The notes beneath the pieces are model-generated. The model was not told where the DNA came from. It searched no databases and saw only the letters and a program-made list of their open reading frames with translations. A DNA stretch of 64,000 nucleotides, from NCBI RefSeq assembly GCF_001953955.1, contig NZ_CP019300.1:1116001-1180000 (forward strand), given 5' to 3'. Every line of letters begins with the position of its first letter. Position 1 is the first letter of the stretch. This document shows positions 40,548 to 52,835 of this stretch, piece after piece. A program made the position numbers and the translations under genes. Source of the stretch: Prevotella intermedia ATCC 25611 = DSM 20706. GTDB lineage: Bacteria > Bacteroidota > Bacteroidia > Bacteroidales > Bacteroidaceae.

Positions 40548-43349
40548 ATGAAAGTCTATATTAAAAAGCACATTCAATGTATTTGTCTGCTGTTATTGTT
40601 TTTCGCTTTGCCTGCACAGGCGAATGATTACAAACATTCCGTTGAAGGTTCTGTTGTTGATAACATCACAGGCATGGGGGTTACAGCCAAAATAACCTTG
40701 ATGACTGCCGACAGTGTTGTTATTGATACGATTACAGCGGATATAGAAGAGATGCCTTGGGATATTGGTTATCACAAGGCTTATTATGAATTTAAAGATG
40801 CTGTAACGTCGAAAGGAAAGTACATTATTAAGGCTGAGAAAGAGGGCTACGACGTTTGTTATATGAATTGTGAATTGAGAAGCACTCGCCAAGACTATAT
40901 TAAGGTAAAAGAAATCCGAATGACGAAGATTGTGGAACACGAACTACAGGAAGTTACGGTTGTTGCTTCAAAGGTGAAAATGGTCATGAAAGGCGATACC
41001 ATTGTCTACAATGCTAATGCTTTTAACTTAGCCGAAGGCAATATGCTCGATGCCTTAATCGCCCGCTTGCCGGGTGCAAAGTTAGAGAAAGACGGAAGGA
41101 TTTATGTGAATGGGAGGTTTATTCAGAGTCTGTTGGTAAACGGACATGAATTCTTTTCCGGTAATCCTAAACTGGCTTTAGAGAACCTTCCTGCCTATAC
41201 GGTGAACAAAATAAAGGTATATAACAAGGCGGGAACAAAGTCAAGGCTGATGCAACAAAGTATGGGAGATAATACTTACGTGATGGACGTCAGGTTGAAA
41301 CGTGAATATGCAACGGGCTATATGGGCGATTTGGAAGCTGGAGGCGGTACACAGAAGCGTTACAAACTTCGTGGTTTCGGTATGAAGTTCTCCGATAAAG
41401 AACGTATGGGAGCCTTCTTCAATATCAATAATCTGAACGATAATCAGCGTGCTGAACTCACTGGAGAATGGGAACCGCAAGATGTGGGCAACGGTTTGCT
41501 TACAGTAAAGAACGCAGGTGTATCGTATGTACGTTTCTTGAATAATGAAAGATCGTGGGTTTCAACCGGAAACACTTGGCAACATATCAGTACAGACAAC
41601 GAGTCTATTACACATACGCAGACTTATTTGCCTGAAGGAAACTCATTCTTACACAATCATAGCAAACAACTGAATAGTTCGGATAAGTGGGAAAGCATAA
41701 ACCGTCTTTCTATTGATAAGACTAATTTCTCTACATCTAACTCTCTTAGTATTTCCTATCTGCGCAATAATGGGTTTGGAAGTACGAACAGCACCACTGC
41801 AAATGAAACAACAAAGCTGAATACTTTGCTATCGAGAAACAGTTTCGAGTCAAGCGATTTCAACTTTGACTTCTCGACAGGCAATTATGTTAAGTACATT
41901 ACAGACTTGATACGAGGAGACTTTTCTGTAAGTTACAATCGTAATAAGCAAAAACAGTTTATGTTGAACAACGTTCAATATCTGCAGGGAGGTCAACCCA
42001 ATGACCTTCGTAACAATTACTTTGACATGCCCAATCAGAAGCTGAAGCTATCTGCTGGTGTGGGCTACGATTTTAAAATACGTGAAACAACTTTAACTCC
42101 AGAATATTCTTATACTTACACATATAACAAGGCAAGTAATTTGCTTTACCGTCTTGACTGGATTGCAGGAAGAGATATTAATCAGTTTAATGTCTTGCCT
42201 TCTGCTTCAAATGTTTTGCTTTCCGTATTGGATAATAACAATAGCTATCGCTTCAATGAATATCGAAACGAACATAAATTTAATTTTAAATACTTTAATC
42301 GTAAGATTAAAATATTGAATAGCTTTGTTTTACTAAATCTTCCGCTGCGTTTGTTAAATGCCGATTTCCATTATTATGGTATTAGTGAGCAACGTTTTTC
42401 TCGTCGCAAACTGTTCTTTGAACCAAACGTAGAACTAAACCATTGGGAAGAAGATGTGTCATGGGTGTTTACTGCAGGTATGAAATCAGACTTTCCAAGC
42501 CTGCTTGCCACAGCAGATTATCGCAACGACAGCGACCCTTTGAACATTCGATTGGGTAATAAAGACTTACGCAACCTGCATTATTATGATGTAGATGCCA
42601 ATATTACCTTTAATGGAGAAAATGAAAAAACAATTAGTTTATCTGCCAATTATCACCGAACAGACAATCAAGTGGCCTATGCGCTCATCTTTGATAAGAC
42701 GACGGGAGCTTCAATTATATATCCTACCAGTGTGAATGGCAATTGGAATACAAAGTTTGAAGTAGAGTTTAAACGTGCATTGGACAAAGCGAATAAAATC
42801 CTGTTCAGCAACAATTTCTCTACGAATTATAACCACAGTGTAGATATGGCTTCAATAGCAGGAAGTACTGAAAGCCAACGAAGCATTGTGAATAACTGGG
42901 AGTTTGGCGATGAACTGAAGGTTAATTGTCGTCTGAACGACAACTATGAATTTACATTCCATACAGGTGGAAAGTACTATCTTATAAATAGCGAGCGTGT
43001 AGGCTTTGAGAAAATCAAGGCATCTGACTACAACATAGGGCTGAATGCACAGATTGTATTGCCTTGGGAGTTACAACTAACTACCGATATGACGATGTTT
43101 GCAAGGCGAGGTTATCAGCAATCTGAAATGAATACCACCGATTGGATTTGGAATGTTCAGTTGGCACGTACCTTCTTAAAAGGACATCTTACCGCTAAAC
43201 TGCAAGGTTTCGACCTGTTGCAACAACTGTCAAACACACGCTACGTTATTAATTCGCAAGGGCGTACAGAGTCGTGGAACAACAGCATACCACGATATGT
43301 AATGCTTTCTCTTGCGTGGAAGTTCAACATTAATCCAAAGAAAAAATAA
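40548..43349 (+). CDS. Outer-membrane beta-barrel protein, TonB-receptor-like
   Basis: The 933-residue protein has a signal peptide (ending PAQA), a carboxypeptidase-regulatory-like module (VEGSVVDNITGMGVTAKITL, about 33-110), a plug-like domain and a barrel. The plug-like part reads GDTIVYNANAFNLAEGNMLDALIARLPGAKL, then NGHEFFSGNPKLALENLPAYTVNKIKVYNKAG. The same plug plan occurs in the barrel of the peptide locus at 47.8 kb. No TonB box was identified. Adjacent palindrome arrays and flanking repeated terminators mark it as a possibly mobile or regulated unit. Substrate unknown. Confidence 0.82.
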   Translation: MKVYIKKHIQCICLLLLFFALPAQANDYKHSVEGSVVDNITGMGVTAKITLMTADSVVIDTITADIEEMPWDIGYHKAYYEFKDAVTSKGKYIIKAEKEGYDVCYMNCELRSTRQDYIKVKEIRMTKIVEHELQEVTVVASKVKMVMKGDTIVYNANAFNLAEGNMLDALIARLPGAKLEKDGRIYVNGRFIQSLLVNGHEFFSGNPKLALENLPAYTVNKIKVYNKAGTKSRLMQQSMGDNTYVMDVRLKREYATGYMGDLEAGGGTQKRYKLRGFGMKFSDKERMGAFFNINNLNDNQRAELTGEWEPQDVGNGLLTVKNAGVSYVRFLNNERSWVSTGNTWQHISTDNESITHTQTYLPEGNSFLHNHSKQLNSSDKWESINRLSIDKTNFSTSNSLSISYLRNNGFGSTNSTTANETTKLNTLLSRNSFESSDFNFDFSTGNYVKYITDLIRGDFSVSYNRNKQKQFMLNNVQYLQGGQPNDLRNNYFDMPNQKLKLSAGVGYDFKIRETTLTPEYSYTYTYNKASNLLYRLDWIAGRDINQFNVLPSASNVLLSVLDNNNSYRFNEYRNEHKFNFKYFNRKIKILNSFVLLNLPLRLLNADFHYYGISEQRFSRRKLFFEPNVELNHWEEDVSWVFTAGMKSDFPSLLATADYRNDSDPLNIRLGNKDLRNLHYYDVDANITFNGENEKTISLSANYHRTDNQVAYALIFDKTTGASIIYPTSVNGNWNTKFEVEFKRALDKANKILFSNNFSTNYNHSVDMASIAGSTESQRSIVNNWEFGDELKVNCRLNDNYEFTFHTGGKYYLINSERVGFEKIKASDYNIGLNAQIVLPWELQLTTDMTMFARRGYQQSEMNTTDWIWNVQLARTFLKGHLTAKLQGFDLLQQLSNTRYVINSQGRTESWNNSIPRYVMLSLAWKFNINPKKK

Positions 43350-43950: not shown

Positions 43951-44257
43951 GTTCTATACGCTACTTTTTTTGTTCCTTTTGCGAGTAAATACCTGCTGTT
44001 TTATTGCACAAAGTATCTATATAAAGTTGTACTTGTTTAATAGTTAGAAGGTTGTGCTTGCACACGAATGCTTCGATTATTTGCAGATAAATATCTTATC
44101 GTTCCTAAAAACCGCCTTCCTGCCATTGTTTCACGCTTGAATTTTAACACTATTGTGCGTTTGGTGATAGTAATTATGATTTAGTAACAATAACACTTTA
44201 ATTTGTTAATGTGTGATTTTTTTTAAATGAATATTTGCAAATAAAAAGATAAATTTC

Positions 44258-44265
44258 TATATTTG
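44258..44265 (+). promoter_or_regulatory. Promoter of the VKOR-thioredoxin fusion gene
   Basis: TATATTTG with TTTG about 20 bases upstream (44234-44237). This is the only good promoter I see for the peptide locus from here to 53 kb. Confidence 0.6.
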
Positions 44266-44326: not shown

Positions 44327-45853
44327 ATGAGAAATGAGTATATTTTAGATGTTGTTGACAAAATATTGAATTTGAACGATATTCATGCTAATAGAAAAAA
44401 ACTTTTTAAAGTTCTTTTCTCTTCGCCTGTTTTTCCAAGTTTAGCTGCCATTTCTCAAACTTTATCTTATTACGGCCTACATAACAATGCTTTTGTTACT
44501 GATTTAAAACATCTATTGAAACTTAAAAATGTAATAGTTCATTCTATTAAAAAAGAGGAAGGACATTTCTATATTCTTACCCAAATAGACAGTAATACAG
44601 TAACACTCTATGATGGCGATGAAACAAAAATTAGTCTTGAAGAGTTTACTGTAATATGGGACGGTGTTGTGTTGGTGGTTGAAGAGAAAGAGAATGTCAA
44701 TATAAAACGGTCTATTATTGCTTTTCCGTTTTGCTGTTTTGGTTTTTGGGGGTATTTATTGTTGTATTTTTTCTTTACCACAACAAAATTTACTATAGAC
44801 TTTATTTTAGACAGTATAGGGTTCACTTTGTCATTAGTATTGTTTAGGCAACATTTGATAATATTCGAGAAAACTTCTTTTTGCCAAATTGGAAAGAATG
44901 TTGATTGCAATTATGTTGCAGATAGAAATCCATTGCAAAAATGGCTACCGATAGATTTAGCTATAATGGGCGTTTTCTTTTTTCTTTTTAATCTACTTAG
45001 CCTGATTATAGTTGGAGCAGCAAATTGTATATCGGGTTATATCACTCTTGTTGCAGCTATTTTTATGATGTTTCTTAGTATTTATCAGGTATTTAAAATA
45101 AAAAAATATTGTCTTTATTGTTTAGGCATAACGATTGTGGTTTTTGCAAAACTCTACATTTCGGTTTTATCATTTAATGCTAATCATATCTATTTGTTAC
45201 CTAAATTTGTCATTTCAATAATTATTGCTTATTTATTTAGTTATCTAATTTATAAAATAATGAACTATGATAAACTATTATTAAATAATGATATAGAACT
45301 CTTAAGAATAAAACGCAATCCCAGTATTATAAAAAAATATTTCGTTCAATCTCATTCTATCGTGCCTACTGAGGAAATGATGGAGTTTGGCAACAAGTAT
45401 GCAGATATAGTGATAACTACTTTTATTAGCTTACATTGTCGCCACTGTCAAAAGGTTGTGTCAGAAGTTATTCAGCTTATAGATAAGTTTCCTAAACGTT
45501 TCTTATGGCGCGTTGCGATACAAGGTATTAGCAGCAATGATATGGATGATAACGTTTTTGCCCGATTGAATACTCGTCAGTTGAATATTCTTCAACTCTA
45601 TATAAATGATAAAAAGCGTTGCTTGAAAGCAATGCGCTTATGGAATTTTAAGAATATAACTGATTGTTTGGAAGAGTTGATTGCAAAATATCGTTTTCAG
45701 CAGAAAAATATTGAAAAAATGATAATAATGCATTATCCTACAATATGGGTAAACGGTATTGTTCTACCTCAAGAATATACAACATCCGATTTACAATATA
45801 TTAACCAAGAATTAATAGAAATGAAACATAACGAAACTTATCGAATGAGATAA
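44327..45853 (+). CDS. C39-like/VKOR/thioredoxin fusion protein
   Basis: The 508-residue protein joins three parts. Residues about 20-120 resemble a C39 peptidase without its catalytic Cys (VFPSLAAISQTLSYYGL), although His80 (HFYIL) and Asp96 are kept. Residues about 128-315 form a VKOR-type membrane domain with an outer Cys pair (C186, C194) and an active-site CLYC (262-265). Residues about 355-495 are thioredoxin-like, with CRHC (371-374) and a Pro in YPTIWVNG. VKOR enzymes reoxidise thioredoxin-like partners, so the fusion should make disulfides at the outer face of the membrane. The next gene encodes a small two-Cys peptide, a plausible substrate. The inactive C39 part may bind the peptide leader. 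These roles are inferred. Confidence 0.8.
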   Translation: MRNEYILDVVDKILNLNDIHANRKKLFKVLFSSPVFPSLAAISQTLSYYGLHNNAFVTDLKHLLKLKNVIVHSIKKEEGHFYILTQIDSNTVTLYDGDETKISLEEFTVIWDGVVLVVEEKENVNIKRSIIAFPFCCFGFWGYLLLYFFFTTTKFTIDFILDSIGFTLSLVLFRQHLIIFEKTSFCQIGKNVDCNYVADRNPLQKWLPIDLAIMGVFFFLFNLLSLIIVGAANCISGYITLVAAIFMMFLSIYQVFKIKKYCLYCLGITIVVFAKLYISVLSFNANHIYLLPKFVISIIIAYLFSYLIYKIMNYDKLLLNNDIELLRIKRNPSIIKKYFVQSHSIVPTEEMMEFGNKYADIVITTFISLHCRHCQKVVSEVIQLIDKFPKRFLWRVAIQGISSNDMDDNVFARLNTRQLNILQLYINDKKRCLKAMRLWNFKNITDCLEELIAKYRFQQKNIEKMIIMHYPTIWVNGIVLPQEYTTSDLQYINQELIEMKHNETYRMR

Positions 45854-45856
45854 ACA

Positions 45857-45913
45857 TATACTATCTTACTTAAGTAAAGGATTAGCTACCCTTTTTCCAA
45901 GTAAGATAGTGTA
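45857..45913 (+). other. Strong hairpin between the VKOR and peptide genes
   Basis: A stem of about 15 bp with one G-U pair (core ACTATCTTACTT, 45860-45871, with AAGTAAGATAGT, 45899-45910) and a 27-base loop that can pair further (AAAGG with CCTTT). There is no U-run directly after it, so it may be an attenuator, a processing site or an mRNA stabiliser rather than a terminator. Confidence 0.65.
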
Positions 45914-46019
45914 GAGGAGTTGCCTATTCCCTCTTTTAATGTTAAAAGCATAAATACTAGTTAATGCAATATCGATAAAAGGTATAGTAAATAAAATATA
46001 ATTTTTTAAATTAAAACAA

Positions 46020-46235
46020 ATGAAAAAGCTAAATTTTATTGAAATGTCCACTGTTTATGGTGGTTTTGACAACGAAAAAGGTCGTGAAGTACAGCAAAGA
46101 GGTCATGAACTTGACAACAAACAAAATGGTAGAATTACGCTTTGTAATACTTCAGAAGAAGAAAAAGCTTACCGAGATAAATTGGAGCAAGATTGGGAAC
46201 AATGGATAATAGATTTTAATAAGTATTGTGTATAA
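46020..46235 (+). CDS. Small peptide with double-glycine leader
   Basis: The 71-residue product has a leader MKKLNFIEMSTVYGG of the class II bacteriocin type seen in Bacteroidota (hydrophobic L4, F6, M9, V12 and a GG cleavage site at 14-15). Cleavage would release a 56-residue peptide with two Cys, C42 and C70, able to form one disulfide. It is acidic (13 Asp/Glu against 9 Lys/Arg) and Trp-containing, unlike the cationic amphipathic bacteriocins. It lies between a VKOR-thioredoxin fusion and GLPGLI/barrel genes, and a C39-peptidase ABC exporter is 4 kb downstream. The export link is inferred. Confidence 0.7.
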   Translation: MKKLNFIEMSTVYGGFDNEKGREVQQRGHELDNKQNGRITLCNTSEEEKAYRDKLEQDWEQWIIDFNKYCV

Positions 46236-46242
46236 TAATTAT

Positions 46243-46277
46243 CTTCCTCACAGAGAATATTATTTTCTGTGAGGAAG
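46243..46277 (+). terminator. Hairpin directly after the peptide gene
   Basis: Stem CTTCCTCACAGA / TCTGTGAGGAAG plus further A-U and G-U pairs, 5-base loop. It begins 7 bases after the stop codon and the next ORF starts 20 bases later. It may partly terminate, or protect the 3' end of the peptide mRNA. Confidence 0.65.
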
Positions 46278-46296
46278 GGTTTATAATAAAATAAAA

Positions 46297-47058
46297 ATGA
46301 AGACCATAGCATCTTTATTGATGATATTAAGTGTACAATTTTGTTTTTCACAGGAAACCCGTGTTATCGAGCCTGCAGAGCTTGAAATAACTTTTTCTAC
46401 AAAGGAATATGCATTTTGGGACACCTATACCTTCCGTTGTGGAAAGAATGTGAGCCAATATTTTAGTATTTCTGAATTGCAACATCAAAAGATGTTAGCT
46501 GATGATGATCCGGCTCTCTTTATCCTTTGGGATAAGAGATTGGCAGATTACGATGAGCCGGACCCGGCAAAAAGGATGCCTGCGAGTACGGGAAACTTAG
46601 ATGAAATTTACCGCAACCTTGAGCAAGGGAAGTTTACAACCTATTCAACTGTTGTGGGAACTCATTATTTAATAACCGAAGATGTTGTTATTCCCGAGTG
46701 GACAATGTACGAAGACTCCACAATTACAGTCTTAGGCATGGAATGTAAGAAAGCTACGACAAACTTTCGGGGTCGCTATTGGGAAGTCTGGTATGCCGAA
46801 GAATTGCCCATCAGCCAAGGTCCTTGGAAGTTGTGCGGCTTGCCGGGCATGATATTAAAAGCGAATTGCCCCAAGTTTATGTTGATAGAAGCAACCGGTA
46901 TCAAGAACAAAAACCTTGAACCCGTAACCTTTTATAATTATCTGAACTATAAATATGCCCCGATAGACCGCATGGAATATCTAAAGAAAGTGCATAAACC
47001 GGGTATCTATCCAACCGGAGGAAGTCGTAAAACGATAGAAATAGATGATACTGAATAG
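46297..47058 (+). CDS. GLPGLI family protein (first of a tandem pair)
   Basis: The 253-residue secreted protein has a signal peptide ending FCFSQ. The family signature follows: ECKKATTNFRGRYWEVWYAE, then GPWKLCGLPGMILKANCP. Its N-terminus contains IEPAELEITFSTKEY and FRCGKNVSQYFS. GLPGLI (TIGR01200) proteins are common in Bacteroidota with no known function, often next to TonB-type barrels. This copy overlaps no other gene except the ORF extension of its partner, whose true start is 8 bases after its stop. Confidence 0.85.
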   Translation: MKTIASLLMILSVQFCFSQETRVIEPAELEITFSTKEYAFWDTYTFRCGKNVSQYFSISELQHQKMLADDDPALFILWDKRLADYDEPDPAKRMPASTGNLDEIYRNLEQGKFTTYSTVVGTHYLITEDVVIPEWTMYEDSTITVLGMECKKATTNFRGRYWEVWYAEELPISQGPWKLCGLPGMILKANCPKFMLIEATGIKNKNLEPVTFYNYLNYKYAPIDRMEYLKKVHKPGIYPTGGSRKTIEIDDTE

Positions 47059-47065
47059 AACTGAT

Positions 47066-47836
47066 ATGAAGCCAAGGTCTTTTCTCTTAGTTTTGTTCTT
47101 TATGCTAAATGCTGCAATGTGTTTAGCACAAGAAACCCACGTTATAGAGCCGGCAGAACTTGAAATAGTTTATTCGGTAAAAGAACAACCGCACTGGGAT
47201 ACTTATATTTTCCGTTGTGGTAGGAATGTGAGCCAATATTTTAGCCAACCTGCACTGCAAAGTGATAAGATGTTAGCGAATGACGACCCGGCTCTCTTTA
47301 TTATCGCAAATGAAAGAATGAAAGCTTTAGACACACCCGAATATGCAAAAAAATATCCTGTTAGTACAGGTCGTCATGATATCATTTATCGGAACTTTGA
47401 GGAAGGAGTATTAAAAACTTATTCAAGAGTGTTTGGTTCTAAGTATTTAATAGTTGAAGATATTACTATTCCCGACTGGACAATGTACGAAGACTCCACA
47501 ATTACGGTCTTAGGTATGGAATGTAAGAAAGCTACAACAAATTTCCGTGGCCGTTATTGGGAAGTTTGGTATACAGAGGATATTCCTATTAGTCAAGGTC
47601 CTTGGAAACTATGTGGATTGCCGGGTATGATATTAAAGGCGAATTGCCCGGGCTTTATGTTGATAGAAGCAATGGGTATCAACAACAAAAACCTTGAACC
47701 CGTAACCTTTTATAATTATCTGAACTATAAATATGCCCCGATAGACCGCATAGAATATCTAAAGAAAGTGCATAAACCTGGTGTTTATCCAGGCGGTGGA
47801 AGTTGTGATACTATTGAAATAGACGATAAAAAATAA
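47066..47836 (+). CDS. GLPGLI family protein (second of a tandem pair)
   Basis: The 256-residue paralogue has a signal peptide (ending MCLAQ), the shared IEPAELEI start and GPWKLCGLPGMILKANCP. Its 3' part is nearly the same as in the first copy: 68 bases are identical without a break (47684-47751 and 46906-46973). The N-terminal halves have diverged much more, which fits gene conversion or recent duplication of the 3' part. I start at ATG 47066; the Met at 47045 lies inside the first gene. It is 7 bases upstream of the barrel gene, so translation coupling is likely. Confidence 0.85.
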   Translation: MKPRSFLLVLFFMLNAAMCLAQETHVIEPAELEIVYSVKEQPHWDTYIFRCGRNVSQYFSQPALQSDKMLANDDPALFIIANERMKALDTPEYAKKYPVSTGRHDIIYRNFEEGVLKTYSRVFGSKYLIVEDITIPDWTMYEDSTITVLGMECKKATTNFRGRYWEVWYTEDIPISQGPWKLCGLPGMILKANCPGFMLIEAMGINNKNLEPVTFYNYLNYKYAPIDRIEYLKKVHKPGVYPGGGSCDTIEIDDKK

Positions 47837-47843
47837 TACCAAT

Positions 47844-50396
47844 ATGAAAAAACTATTTGTATTAATTGTTATAACGTTGTTTTCAGAAATATTGCAGGCA
47901 CAAGTAACAGTAACGGGAGTGATAACTGATGTAAATGGAAGTCCGTTATCCGCAGCAATCATAAAAAGTATTGATGCTTCAACAAAGAAAATGCTTGCAT
48001 TTTGCAATACCAAAAATGATGGTAAATTTAGTATTAAAGCAAAAGTGGGCGACTTACTGCAAATTTCTGCAATGAGCTATAAGAAAAAGCAAATAGCGGT
48101 AATAGCAGATATGCCAGAACAACATATCGTGCTTGAAGATGATGCAAAAGCATTGGACGAGATAACGGTAAAGGCAAAGCCTGTAAGGATTGATGGCGAC
48201 ACGATAAAATATCTTCTTGGCGTATATGCAAAACCTGGCGATCGCACTTTAGCCGATGTATTGGCTCGTGTGCCGGGTTTTGAGGTGAATAAAAGCACGG
48301 GGCAAATTTCGTATGAGGGAAGAAGCATCAGCAACTTCTATATAGAAGGAATGGATATGTTGGGCGGAAAATATGGTGTTGCTTCAAAGTCGCTGCCTCA
48401 AAACGATATAGCAACGGTGGAAGTGATGAAGCATCATACCCCCATTCGGGTATTAGACGACTTTGTTTATTCAGACGAAAGTGCCATTAACGTTCGTATG
48501 AAGAAAGGTGCTAAAGCACATTGGATAGCTACGTTTAATGGTGGCATAGGCTATAAGAGTGGTGGCGGGCTGTGGAACTTTGAAAGTTTTGCCATGCGTT
48601 TAAAGCAGAATTGGCAAACCATGATTACCTATAAAACGAACAATAGTGGCAGAGACATTGTTCACGAAACGAACAAAGCCTTTACTTATGGTGAGTTGGA
48701 CAGCAGGCTGGTCCCATTTATTTCGCTGCCTTCCCCTGCAAGTTCCAGATTGGGAGAACGCTCTTTGTTCAACAGAAGTCATACGTTGAACTTGAATATG
48801 TTGCAACGTATAAACGAGACATCGCAAGTAAATGTTCAGGTTACTTACATCAACGACCGCCAAGAGACTTTCTCTAAACGTACAGCGGAGTACTTTTCAA
48901 AGCGAGGAAACAAAGTATCGGACAATGAAAAACACTATATAGCAAAGACTAATGAACTCTTTGCAAAGGTTAAATATGAGAACAATGCCAACAGTCAGTA
49001 TCTAAAGAATGAACTTTCTACGAACTTAAATTGGAACAAACAGCTGCTGATAGAGCGTGGCACAAATCCACACGAAATGAATGGTAACCTTCCTGTATTC
49101 ACATTGAAAGATAATCTTTTGCTAATGCGTAAGTATGGCAAGCGTTTGTACTCTTTCGAGTCGAAGAATATAATGGAAGCGCGCCCCCGGCAGTTAGCTA
49201 TGGACACACTGCACCAAGACATTAACCAACATTATTACGAGACTGACAATAAAATATCAGGTAGTTTCCGTTTGGGTAAGTTTGTTCTGACAGGGAAAGT
49301 AGGAGCCAATGCAGCACTGCACGCATTTTCTTCGCATCTTGTAGGTGTCCCCGACAGCATCGGAATGCTTTCCGGTAACAGCCGCTTTTCCATGTTTCGG
49401 TTCTATGTAAGTTCAAATATAGAATACAAGTTATCCGATTTTATCTTTAATTTTTCTTCGGACGTGTCTTACAATCGCTATAAATACAGTCTAAGCACGG
49501 CTTACAGTCGTGCACTTTTCTCGCCCAACTTGCACATTCGTTGGAATGCCACACCGCATTGGACGTTCGCTGTTGATGGAAGAATAGGGCAGAGAGAAGT
49601 AGACGTAAATCAGTTTTATCCCACCCTCGTATTAGCCGATTACGAATATATAAACAAAGGCTTTGCCGATTACAGAATAGGTAAGGATAAGACGGCAGGC
49701 ATCATTGTTCGGTACAACAATGCACTACAAGGCACGTCGGTGTTTCTTACTGCCAACAGAACTTTTATGACCACACCTTATACAGCTTCGCAAGACTATG
49801 TAGGCAGCTATATTGTATTGTCGCTTGTGCCACAAGAAACCAAAAGCAATGCGTGGACAATTAACTTAATGGGGTCGCAAGGTGTTGGCTTTCTAAAAGG
49901 AAAGCTGAATATCAGAACCATATACAACAGTTCAAAATCGTATATTGTGCAAAACAACGAGGTGATGCCTTTCAATACAAGCACTTGCAATGTGAGAGGA
50001 GGCTTAACAGTTGGCCTTGTCAGGAATACCGATTTGGGTTACAATATTGAATATAGCTACTACCAAACCGACATGCCGGCACTCTCTTCCGCCTATACAC
50101 TGAACAACTGGAAGCACAATGCTTACTTGCGACTGTTTCTTACGAAGAAGTTTACAACCGAGGCAAGGGCAGAATACTATCACAACCAAATAGCGAAAGA
50201 TAAGTTTAAAGACATCTTCTTTGCCGATTTAGCAATGCGATACAGCTTTAAGAAGTTCGACATTACGTTAGAACTCAACAACTTATTGAATAAGAAAGGT
50301 TACGGTTATGGCGTAAACGGCACATTTGTTCGCAGCTATAACAGTTTGAATATTCGAGGAAGAGAGATAATGGTAAGTGTCTATTATAAGCCTTAA
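47844..50396 (+). CDS. Outer-membrane barrel of the peptide locus, TonB-receptor-like
   Basis: The 850-residue protein has a signal peptide (ending ILQAQ), a carboxypeptidase-regulatory-like domain (VTVTGVITDVNGSPLSAAII, about residues 20-93), a plug-like domain and a large barrel ending GREIMVSVYYKP. The plug contains RTLADVLARVPGFEV, NFYIEGMDMLGGKYGVA and VEVMKHHTPIRVLDDFV. The same plug plan is in the 40548 protein. Barrel proteins next to GLPGLI genes are common in the phylum. Here it lies between the peptide's maturation genes and the exporter, so it may be the outer-membrane exit or receptor of the peptide (inferred). Confidence 0.82.
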   Translation: MKKLFVLIVITLFSEILQAQVTVTGVITDVNGSPLSAAIIKSIDASTKKMLAFCNTKNDGKFSIKAKVGDLLQISAMSYKKKQIAVIADMPEQHIVLEDDAKALDEITVKAKPVRIDGDTIKYLLGVYAKPGDRTLADVLARVPGFEVNKSTGQISYEGRSISNFYIEGMDMLGGKYGVASKSLPQNDIATVEVMKHHTPIRVLDDFVYSDESAINVRMKKGAKAHWIATFNGGIGYKSGGGLWNFESFAMRLKQNWQTMITYKTNNSGRDIVHETNKAFTYGELDSRLVPFISLPSPASSRLGERSLFNRSHTLNLNMLQRINETSQVNVQVTYINDRQETFSKRTAEYFSKRGNKVSDNEKHYIAKTNELFAKVKYENNANSQYLKNELSTNLNWNKQLLIERGTNPHEMNGNLPVFTLKDNLLLMRKYGKRLYSFESKNIMEARPRQLAMDTLHQDINQHYYETDNKISGSFRLGKFVLTGKVGANAALHAFSSHLVGVPDSIGMLSGNSRFSMFRFYVSSNIEYKLSDFIFNFSSDVSYNRYKYSLSTAYSRALFSPNLHIRWNATPHWTFAVDGRIGQREVDVNQFYPTLVLADYEYINKGFADYRIGKDKTAGIIVRYNNALQGTSVFLTANRTFMTTPYTASQDYVGSYIVLSLVPQETKSNAWTINLMGSQGVGFLKGKLNIRTIYNSSKSYIVQNNEVMPFNTSTCNVRGGLTVGLVRNTDLGYNIEYSYYQTDMPALSSAYTLNNWKHNAYLRLFLTKKFTTEARAEYYHNQIAKDKFKDIFFADLAMRYSFKKFDITLELNNLLNKKGYGYGVNGTFVRSYNSLNIRGREIMVSVYYKP

Positions 50397-50461
50397 AGTA
50401 AGAAAAGTATTTTTAAAAAAAGTATTAAAAATTATCCCATATATTTATTTTCAACTTTAAA

Positions 50462-52651
50462 ATGCAACAATTTCCATTATTCAAACAGCACGACTCTATG
50501 CTTTGTGGCATAACTTGTCTTAAAATGGTGTGTAAATATTACGGTGCATTTTATTCTATTGAGTTTCTTTCTTCGCTGTGTAAAGAGGGACGCGAAGGTA
50601 TATCGTTACTTGCAATGAGTAAAGGGGCAGATAGCTTGGGATTAAAAAATGAATGTGGATTAGCTGAAATAGCAGAATTGAAAAATAGTCTTCCTTGTAT
50701 TCTCCATTGGAATCAAAATCATTTCGTAGTATTATATAAGGTTAATAAAGGGAAGATTTTCTATATTGCAGATCCTGCAAAAGGACTTACAAAGTATAGT
50801 CTTGAAGATTTTAAGAAGCATTGGATTAGTACAAAGTTAGGAGGTGAAGAAAAAGGAATAGCGATGTTTATTGAACCAACTTCAGAGTTTTATGAAAGGC
50901 AAATAGAAGAACCCATGGAGAAACGATCGTTTAAATTTCTTTTTGGTTATATAAAGAAGTATCGCAAATATTTCGGGCAGATTGTCTTAGGCTTGTTTGT
51001 TGGTAGTTTGTTGCAACTAATTTTGCCTTTCCTTACCCAAGCTATTGTGGATGTAGGTATTAAAAAACATAGTATAAGTTTTATTTGGTTGATACTTTTA
51101 GGTCAATTGGTATTGACGATAAGCCGTACAGCTATCGACTTTATTCGTCGTTGGTTGTTGCTTCACATATCAATGCGTATCAATATTTCGTTGGTGAGCG
51201 ATTTCTTCATTAAACTTTTGAAACTACCGATGTCGTTCTTTGAAACAAAGTTGTTGGGCGACCTAATGCAACGTATGGGAGACCATAGTCGTGTGAATGG
51301 CTTTTTAACGCAGCAAACATTAAGCATTGTATTTTCGTTTTTTACCTTTATTGTGTTCAGTATCGTACTGTTATTTTATAATTGGTTGATATTTTCCATT
51401 TTTCTTTTGGGGAGTTTGTTGTATGGTAGTTGGCTTGCTCTTTTTCTTAGGCGAAGAAAAGTACTCGACTATGAATTCTTTGAGCAACAAGCTATAAACA
51501 ACAACAAGACTTATGAATTTATTACTTCTATGCAAGAAATAAAACTCCAAGATTGTGAACAGCGTCGTCGTTGGGAATGGGAAGATGTGCAGGCTGAACT
51601 CTTCGGCGTGCAGATGAAGTCGTTGAAACTCCAGCAAACACAAGAAGCCGGTAGTATTTTCATAAACGAACTTAAGAATATAATCATCACAGTGGTTGCT
51701 GCAACAGCTGTAATACAGGGCCAGCTCACTTTGGGTATGATGCTTGCAGTGCAATATATAATTGGTCAGCTCAATTCTCCAGTTGAACAACTGATGGGAT
51801 TCTTTTATTCTGTCCAAGATGTAAAAATAAGCCTTGAACGTATCAACGAAATACACAATGTAGACGATGAAAATGGAAAGAATGGATTACAAACAATAGT
51901 GAGAGAAGAAAGTAAGGGAATAGACTTTGAAAATGTTAATTTCAAATACGACCCTCACGCACTGAAAGCGATAATTGATAATGTGAACATACAAATTCCC
52001 AAAGGTAAAGTAACCGCTATCGTGGGCGCGTCGGGCAGTGGGAAAACAACATTAATAAAATTAATGTTAGGTTATTATCCTGTTTTGAGCGGACAAATTT
52101 CCATTGACGGAACAGACATAAATACATTGAATAAAAAATGGTGGCGCAGGCAGTGTGGTGTAGTAATGCAAGACGGCGTTATTTTTTCCGAATCTATTGC
52201 ACGCAACATTGCCATAGATGATAGTGATATAGACAAAGAACGATTACAAAGAGCTGCCAAGATAGCTTGTATCAACGACTATATTATGGGATTGCCCTTA
52301 AAGTATAATACCAAGATAGGGCGTGATGGTATTGGCTTGAGTCAAGGGCAAAAGCAACGTATCTTGATAGCAAGAGCTGTATATAAGAATCCTGACTACA
52401 TTTTTCTTGATGAAGCGACCAATTCACTCGATGCTAATAACGAACGTATGATTGTAGAAAACCTCAATCAATTTTATAAAGGTAAAACAGTGGTTATTGT
52501 GGCACACCGTCTTAGCACGGTAAAGAATGCCGACCAAATAGTGGTATTAGGCAAAGGAAAAGTATTGGAAGTAGGTAACCATGAACAGCTTACTGCAAAA
52601 CGTGCCGCATATTATAACCTTGTGAAAAATCAATTGGAGCTGGGCAATTAA
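50462..52651 (+). CDS. C39-peptidase ABC exporter (peptide cleavage and export)
   Basis: The 729-residue protein combines an N-terminal C39 peptidase (residues 1-145), six membrane segments (about 165-460) and an ABC ATPase (about 485-729). The peptidase triad is visible: Cys15 in LCGITCL, His87 in NHFVVL, Asp104 in ADPAKGL. ATPase motifs are GASGSGKT (522-529), LSQGQ (626-630), YIFLDEAT (646-653) and His682. Such proteins cut double-glycine leaders and export the peptide through the inner membrane. The peptide at 46020 is the obvious substrate. Many such systems need an HlyD-type adaptor; only a short piece of one follows here. Confidence 0.92.
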   Translation: MQQFPLFKQHDSMLCGITCLKMVCKYYGAFYSIEFLSSLCKEGREGISLLAMSKGADSLGLKNECGLAEIAELKNSLPCILHWNQNHFVVLYKVNKGKIFYIADPAKGLTKYSLEDFKKHWISTKLGGEEKGIAMFIEPTSEFYERQIEEPMEKRSFKFLFGYIKKYRKYFGQIVLGLFVGSLLQLILPFLTQAIVDVGIKKHSISFIWLILLGQLVLTISRTAIDFIRRWLLLHISMRINISLVSDFFIKLLKLPMSFFETKLLGDLMQRMGDHSRVNGFLTQQTLSIVFSFFTFIVFSIVLLFYNWLIFSIFLLGSLLYGSWLALFLRRRKVLDYEFFEQQAINNNKTYEFITSMQEIKLQDCEQRRRWEWEDVQAELFGVQMKSLKLQQTQEAGSIFINELKNIIITVVAATAVIQGQLTLGMMLAVQYIIGQLNSPVEQLMGFFYSVQDVKISLERINEIHNVDDENGKNGLQTIVREESKGIDFENVNFKYDPHALKAIIDNVNIQIPKGKVTAIVGASGSGKTTLIKLMLGYYPVLSGQISIDGTDINTLNKKWWRRQCGVVMQDGVIFSESIARNIAIDDSDIDKERLQRAAKIACINDYIMGLPLKYNTKIGRDGIGLSQGQKQRILIARAVYKNPDYIFLDEATNSLDANNERMIVENLNQFYKGKTVVIVAHRLSTVKNADQIVVLGKGKVLEVGNHEQLTAKRAAYYNLVKNQLELGN

Positions 52652-52667
52652 TCTAAAAAAACAGATT

Positions 52668-52835
52668 ATGGCAGATGACAAAATAGAACTTCGTAGCGAG
52701 AAGATACGTAATATTATTGATGAACCTCCTTCAAAAATTATTTGTTATGGAATTACGATAATCAGTATTGTTATTTTAGTATTTCTAATTATTGTTTATT
52801 TCATAATAAGAAAAACTCCGTACTTTAATATTTAA
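52668..52835 (+). CDS. Small membrane protein resembling the start of an HlyD-type adaptor
   Basis: The 55-residue ORF begins MADDKIELRSEKIRNIIDEP, then an all-hydrophobic span of about 20 residues. Such an acidic start with a single span matches the N-terminus of HlyD-family adaptors in Bacteroidota. It then stops (TPYFNI) where the long periplasmic coiled-coil part should begin. It lies 16 bases after the ABC gene. It may be a truncated adaptor gene or an independent small membrane protein. I see no frame that restores a full HlyD protein before 53004. Confidence 0.55.
   Translation: MADDKIELRSEKIRNIIDEPPSKIICYGITIISIVILVFLIIVYFIIRKTPYFNI

Follow-up and report, generated by a model that had tools for sequence, protein, structure and literature searches.

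A conserved Prevotella intermedia locus that probably makes, oxidises and exports a small disulfide peptide

The window analysed here, a 64,000-nucleotide stretch of Prevotella intermedia ATCC 25611, corresponds to C1:1116001-1180000 of a two-contig genome of 2.67 Mb. Positions 44327-52835 of the window hold seven intact open frames, all on the plus strand behind a single upstream promoter, which encode a C39-like/VKOR/DsbA fusion protein, a small peptide with a double-glycine (GG) leader, two GLPGLI proteins, a putative outer-membrane barrel, a C39 peptidase ABC exporter and a short HlyD-like stub (Table 1). A first-pass annotation had described a gene set running in one direction behind a promoter and had suggested a maturation and two-membrane export pathway for a small disulfide peptide. 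All genes that it named were found on the plus strand, and the locus is real, conserved and beyond chance.

Table 1. Features of the peptide locus (positions in the window; aa, amino acids)
Feature	Position	Strand	Basis
Bacteroidetes-type promoter, TTTG-N20-TATATTTG	44234..44265	+	Consensus pattern search
C39-like/VKOR/DsbA fusion, 508 aa	44327..45853	+	Pfam and predicted fold
Inverted repeat after VKOR gene	45857..45913	+	-21.8 kcal/mol, z -4.1
GG-leader peptide, 71 aa	46020..46235	+	No family match; relatives in same slot in L079, L080
Strong hairpin directly 3' of peptide gene	46242..46278	+	-23.7 kcal/mol, z -7.1
GLPGLI protein 1, 253 aa	46297..47058	+	TIGR01200, 131.8 bits
GLPGLI protein 2, 263 aa	47045..47836	+	TIGR01200, 139.7 bits; sequence match to PNGF-II, 7zgn
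Putative outer-membrane barrel with TonB-receptor-type plug, 850 aa	47844..50396	+	Pfam Plug below cut-off
C39 peptidase ABC exporter, 729 aa	50462..52651	+	Pfam; PCAT1 match
HlyD-like stub, 55 aa	52668..52835	+	Likeness to HlyD-like protein of second locus

The promoter pattern was matched 11 times in the window, where 2.77 matches would be expected; all 11 fell on the plus strand. The widest intergenic gap (166 bases) lies immediately 5' of the peptide gene, which has a hairpin on each side, and the inverted repeat behind the fusion gene is possibly a 3' end or a processing hairpin. Since a hairpin also lies 3' of the peptide gene in a related locus, L080 (-20.0 kcal/mol, z -3.6), it is plausible that the peptide message is controlled separately.

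The order of VKOR fusion, peptide, GLPGLI, barrel and exporter recurs in two relatives, L079 and L080, and in both a short relative of the peptide occupies the equivalent position, after VKOR and before GLPGLI. L080 has one GLPGLI protein and a 157-aa HlyD-like protein, and HlyD was not recognised in L079. A second locus of the same genome (L006, on contig 2) is ordered as a GG peptide, a leucine-rich-repeat-like protein, the fusion, GLPGLI, barrel, exporter and a 164-aa HlyD-like protein. Its GG peptide is unlike that of the window, and pairwise alignment of the two gave no informative result; identity between the loci is 28% for the fusion, 24% along the length of the barrel and 57% for the exporter. 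The start of the second exporter lies in another frame, so that the gene is disrupted. Judged by eye, the surroundings (L006:57-17181, G000:C2) look like mobilisation, excisionase and transposase genes, which suggests that the second locus may sit in an integrative element. Two further loci, L073 and L082, look orthologous to it; of the exporter, and in L073 of the fusion as well, no more than a short fragment is present. In L080 (5777-19333) we also observed two tandem cassettes, one continuing with the VKOR fusion and the other with a radical S-adenosylmethionine (SAM) gene, each preceded by a 533-aa lipoprotein-like protein (copies identical at 532/533 positions) and a 117-aa exported protein (81/117). 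A similar upstream pair, a lipoprotein-like protein of 568-580 aa and an exported protein of 119-130 aa, was seen by eye in three radical-SAM loci (L089:1891-4264, L110:2346-4915 and L113:2420-4682) among our controls, which were 40 C39 loci outside VKOR loci and 40 more fetched later.

The first gene had been annotated as a fusion of VKOR and thioredoxin. The VKOR domain was confirmed (44.8 bits in Pfam), the last domain proved to be DsbA-like, and an additional N-terminal domain scored as Peptidase_C39 (39.5 bits). By predicted fold the protein consists of three domains: a C39-like pseudo-peptidase (residues 1-129), whose fold is that of C39, VKOR (151-285) and a DsbA-like domain (342-500). 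Six redox cysteines are invariant in all 28 aligned fusions, as are the motifs around them, namely two loop cysteines and CXXC in VKOR and CXXC with a cis-Pro in the DsbA-type partner. No conserved catalytic Cys was found in the N-terminal segment of these 28 proteins, and His80, located from the sequence alignment, is kept in three and falls in a gap in 20. Genome-wide, VKOR matched twice, once in each of the two loci. Close homologues of the fusion are named from Prevotella pallens (92%) and P. disiens (84%). A profile of the fusion matched 28/301 family genomes, the window genome and one exporter included, and several of these matches are fragments (for example G299, G186, G244 and G048). 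The single protein matched 5/200 genomes of the genus and a wider profile 99/296 of the phylum, many of the latter matches being partial or C39-only; both counts include the window genome. A related-locus search seeded by the fusion protein alone recovered no relative. In the titles and abstracts searched, a scope outside which most subscription journals and preprints fell, neither a C39/VKOR fusion nor this locus was recognised; three of the papers listed mention GLPGLI by name. The proposed role of a dead-C39/VKOR/DsbA fusion as a dedicated oxidase is among the strongest new points here: it would give peptides a disulfide pathway of their own, one of whose domains may recognise the leader.

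The fusion and C39 proteins tend to occur in the same genomes. C39 matches were present in 26/28 family genomes with the fusion profile and in 77/273 others; when G163, whose profile match is an exporter domain, was left out, the counts were 25/27 and 78/274, although the fusion's own C39-like domain can itself score as C39. By eye, 24 of the 25 genomes also list an exporter-type match in a frame longer than 700 aa, the one in G015 being truncated. Across the phylum, 31 other genomes have a fusion match of at least 240 bits, and at least 16 of them list an exporter-type C39 protein within 7 kb (by eye).

The peptide is present as first described, with a GG leader and two cysteines. Residues 1-15 form the leader, and cleavage after the GG would leave a mature part of 56 aa that contains Cys42 and Cys70. 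It did not match the GG-leader precursor family TIGR04149 (cut-off 25), which was passed by two of seven other scanned peptides (L059, 28.3 bits; L045, 26.1 bits). A search up to E 1 gave 19 homologues, a close one being named from P. intermedia (87%); ten of the 11 full-length (71-aa) homologues carry three cysteines (21, 42 and 70), two of which the window peptide has. The window, L079 and L080 peptides have in common the leader pattern MKKL...E...VxGG and two conserved Trp, and their mature parts measure 56, 33 and 37 aa, respectively; those of L079 and L080 have a Cys near the start and another at the end. In the loci collected around VKOR, 31 GG peptides with 2-8 Cys each were called in 24/36 loci, and that of L079 was added to them by hand; a single call fell on the opposite strand of these loci. 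Two further calls were judged to be false, one being an HlyD stub (L048) and the other having a single Cys (L082). Cysteine content was rejected as a mark of VKOR loci, as the control loci are Cys-rich too.

The C39 exporter was confirmed by Pfam (C39, 100.8 bits; ABC_tran, 107.4 bits) and matches PCAT1 (4ry2) along its whole length (E 1.7e-93). The stub that follows consists of a cytosolic ELRSEK motif and one membrane helix; over a 46-aa stretch it shares 48% identity with the longer (164-aa) HlyD-like protein of the second locus, and its relatives P0020, P0021 and P0023 (55-57 aa) are 98, 76 and 78% identical to it. None of its 55 aa gave a Pfam match, and no periplasmic lipoyl or barrel-sandwich domain was found in it. 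As the stub keeps the cytosolic and membrane parts and lacks a periplasmic arm, the locus encodes no HlyD/TolC tunnel. A TolC conduit supplied by the locus was rejected, none being encoded there; three OEP proteins occur elsewhere in the genome, so a tunnel assembled in trans is a possibility. HlyD-type frames next to exporters vary in length between about 40 and 450 aa, and their starts are related, with a short cytosolic motif that often resembles ELRSEKVRxIIG and then one helix; such a stub is easily overlooked in annotation. A truncated HlyD gene and a lost peptide cysteine could also mean that the locus is decaying in this strain. We consider this very unlikely, because the seven frames are intact, the 76-78% identical stubs P0021 and P0023 occur elsewhere, and HlyD-like frames of 47-86 aa adjoin exporters in 17 loci, the window included, even if some of these loci are close relatives of one another. 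Decay would nevertheless agree with the rarity of the Gly at peptide residue 21, common to just 2/19 homologues (P0002 and P0016), with the 159-aa HlyD-like proteins that accompany the nearest exporters of the window (L097, L128, L135 and L165) and with the disrupted exporter of the second locus.

Both GLPGLI proteins scored far above the TIGR01200 cut-off of 50 bits. They are 73% identical to each other and match the N-terminal domain of PNGase F-II in Pfam; among solved structures, the sequence matches were PNGF-II and the GLPGLI protein 7zgn. The barrel was the weakest of the first-pass assignments: Pfam gave only a Plug match below the cut-off (21.0 versus 23.9 bits, E 5e-4) and no barrel domain, and the assignment otherwise rests on similarity to barrel-type proteins of related loci, three of which were scanned and all confirmed as OMP_b-brl_3. 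A further barrel protein (933 aa, OMP_b-brl_3) lies upstream of the locus at 40548-43349; its likeness to the 850-aa barrel is found mainly across some 120 residues in the plug region. Genome-wide, seven GLPGLI genes form five runs, every one with a barrel: the window accounts for two genes and the second locus for one, and the other four are spread over three loci that lack a C39 exporter. This implies that GLPGLI and barrel are a pair in their own right, and the simplest guess is that GLPGLI works together with the barrel at the surface or in the periplasm. The positional link of this pair to the peptide, as first proposed, held in part. GLPGLI and barrel are kept in six of seven genus loci around VKOR (window, L006, L073, L079, L080 and L082, not L081), and a barrel is present in 14/19 exporter-bearing VKOR loci; outside the genus, however, GLPGLI was found in only 2/29 fetched loci (L048 and L069). 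Thus, beyond near relatives GLPGLI is split from the peptide and exporter, which contradicts the first-pass proposal as far as GLPGLI is concerned, and it was rejected as a general peptide partner; the barrel is widely linked. At L087:2-8646, one run combines GLPGLI and a barrel with a GG peptide, its neighbours being a radical-SAM gene and a C39 exporter gene, which indicates that GLPGLI also accompanies a radical-SAM maturase.

The length of the HlyD-type protein and the presence of a barrel are inversely related. Exporters were scored in 83 Bacteroidaceae cases, after four of 87 with less than 3 kb upstream and no barrel had been dropped; HlyD was sought on both sides, since one clade has it upstream, and L049 was counted as barrel-bearing by a wider search. 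Full-length HlyD accompanied 24 of these exporters, two of them with a barrel and nine with a TolC-type gene nearby, whereas 37 of the 44 exporters with short HlyD had a barrel and none a TolC-type gene (Fisher 7.8e-10 for the barrel contrast by simple count). For the remaining 15 no HlyD was found, although undetected ones may be included; ten had a barrel and none a TolC-type gene. The profiles for HlyD, barrel and TolC were built from first-batch loci; when these earlier profiles were applied to the later 40 loci, barrels were present in 0/6 cases with full-length and 16/20 with short HlyD (by eye, Fisher 9e-4; L167, lacking upstream sequence, was left out). On the exporter tree, four independent pairs on well-supported branches went the expected way in 1.9 and the opposite way in 0.3 cases on average, which is not significant, and independence of the relation from descent is not shown. 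These counts bear on the alternative that GLPGLI and barrel are a separate nutrient or envelope module, sharing the operon by chance or for self-protection. That three of the five GLPGLI/barrel runs lack a C39 exporter and that GLPGLI is rare in loci of other genera would suit such a module; we nonetheless find it somewhat unlikely, as the same order is seen in four distinct genus loci (window, L006 type, L079 and L080) and barrels lie beside 49/83 scored C39 exporters, inversely to full-length HlyD.

Closely related exporters are served by different maturases. In an 87-exporter tree, the four closest neighbours of the window exporter all come from radical-SAM loci, the nearest being 83% identical, and the presence of VKOR changes 11 times, although this quick tree carries a warning of long branches meeting. 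The maturase thus appears to be exchangeable. Radical-SAM genes were detected near the exporter in 17/33 control loci with a scored exporter versus 2/19 VKOR loci (Fisher 0.0033), a comparison biased towards detection in the controls, as the profile was seeded from them; the controls were moreover chosen for being outside VKOR loci, and the 19 VKOR loci include two with VKOR fragments only (L071 and L072). Pfam confirmed radical SAM in five of five scanned proteins, two with SPASM. Other VKOR loci add thioredoxin-like proteins or glycosyltransferases resembling TIGR04157 below its cut-off. A look at seven control loci found no bacteroidetocin-type neighbours, with no result for L141 and L146, which have no tabulated exporter. 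Besides the fusion, the strongest new points are that maturases change among exporters of close kinship and that a reduced adaptor is paired with a barrel.

Taken together, we consider it probable that this is a bacteroidetocin-like locus making, oxidising and exporting a small disulfide peptide, with GLPGLI and barrel as the likely outer-membrane partner. The precursor would be recognised via its 15-aa GG leader, and the C39 domain of the exporter would cleave after the GG while the peptide crosses the inner membrane. In that same membrane the fusion may oxidise the peptide, the DsbA-like domain forming the bond and handing electrons to VKOR, which, as is usual in its family, would pass them on to quinone. 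The dead C39-like domain, which VKOR topology places in the cytosol, is likely to bind the leader and so join precursor and oxidase. Barrel and GLPGLI would take the place of an HlyD/TolC tunnel. In this form the first-pass suggestion of a maturation and export pathway stands as regards gene order, the peptide slot in two relatives and the confinement of VKOR to two such loci; cleavage, oxidation and leader binding, passage of the outer membrane and the activity of the product are its conjectural parts.

Several observations weigh against this proposal. Residue 21 is Cys in 17/19 homologues and Gly in the window peptide, P0002 and P0016, so the presumed bond between N- and C-terminal cysteines cannot form, and Cys42 and Cys70 remain. 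The peptide model is helical at moderate confidence (pLDDT 70). Ten control peptides, in 9/40 control loci, carry 2-9 Cys as well. Full-length HlyD occurs in five VKOR loci (L045, L046, L052, L064 and L081), which implies that oxidation does not require the layout of stub and barrel. Among disulfide-forming enzymes, the genome-wide count covers VKOR and not, for instance, DsbB. Proteins of the TonB-receptor type mostly act as importers, and no immunity gene was recognised among the family matches of the window genes. The last two points would also fit a peptide that is a signal or pheromone instead of an antibacterial, with barrel and GLPGLI as the receptor and import side in sister cells: the Plug match, though below cut-off, is TonB-receptor-type, barrels of related loci match OMP_b-brl_3, and a scan of the L080 peptide gave a very weak VP1 pheromone match (E 0.02, 15.1 bits versus a cut-off of 85). 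However, the VP1 match is confined to the leader region, no regulator is among the family matches of the window genes, and the closest characterised loci produce toxins according to the available text of PMC6671954, which makes a signalling role unlikely. The product of the locus is most likely a bacteroidetocin-like peptide that would act on neighbouring Bacteroidales. In line with an interbacterial role, most bacteriocin-related genes of three P. intermedia strains were strain-specific in the accessible part of PMC4349605.

Peptide secretion in Bacteroidales is little understood, and the stub together with the inverse relation to full-length HlyD and TolC gives a testable model. More tentatively, Bacteroidota may use a two-step, TolC-free peptide secretion, with the stub at the inner membrane only, an exchangeable maturase and a TonB-receptor-type barrel (in this lineage with GLPGLI) as the exit. 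As parts of this same tentative model, maturation here could be periplasmic, by the leader-binding pseudo-C39/VKOR/DsbA fusion, and elsewhere could precede export, by radical SAM, and one exporter/barrel set could be common to disulfide-forming and radical-SAM loci.

Among known systems, the sublancin/glycocin clusters (BdbA/BdbB) likewise unite a GG leader, a C39 exporter and dedicated thiol-disulfide oxidoreductases; they are, however, Gram-positive, with separate oxidoreductases and a glycosyltransferase and without a barrel. Export of the colicin V type, as described in the available text of PMC10352776 (PCAT, membrane fusion protein and TolC), has in common with the window a GG peptide, a C39 exporter and an HlyD-type partner, whereas the window adaptor has 55 aa, a barrel is present and no TolC gene lies in the locus; for colicin V, too, TolC is encoded outside the cluster. 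Radical-SAM peptide clusters of Bacteroidales that export by PCAT, in the accessible portions of PMC10352776 and PMC8939145, share the GG precursor and C39 exporter and in some cases have, as here, an outer-membrane protein and no recognised adaptor; their maturase is a radical-SAM or ATP-grasp enzyme and not a disulfide-forming fusion. The former source asks whether a distinct mechanism operates where a cluster has a C39 exporter and an outer-membrane protein but lacks an adaptor, a question on which the relation between HlyD and barrel bears, and the latter already proposed that TonB-receptor-related proteins might export graspetides. The characterised system nearest to the locus is that of the bacteroidetocins (class IIf bacteriocins, Coyne et al. 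2019, PMC6671954), known also from Prevotella, which share with the window a 15-aa GG leader, a small Cys peptide, a C39 ABC exporter and a thiol oxidoreductase gene. Measured against the gene set given in the available text, the window peptide has the leader of 15-16 aa ending in GG (15 aa up to the GG, after which cleavage would occur) and the two or more mature cysteines (Cys42 and Cys70), while its mature part of 56 aa exceeds the published 35-50 aa. The C39 exporter gene is present, the VKOR/DsbA-like fusion provides the thiol oxidoreductase, and no separate gene for a five-membrane-span protein was recognised by eye at 44327-52835, no membrane-span prediction having been run. Because peptide size and the separate five-span gene disagree, the locus is not classed as a bacteroidetocin locus by the published set; it differs further in its single-fusion oxidase and in the added GLPGLI pair, barrel and HlyD stub. 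In the same available text, active secretion of bacteroidetocins through the outer membrane is left open, and deletion of the thiol oxidoreductase gene attenuated toxin activity. The VKOR domain of the fusion might stand in for the bacteroidetocin five-span protein.

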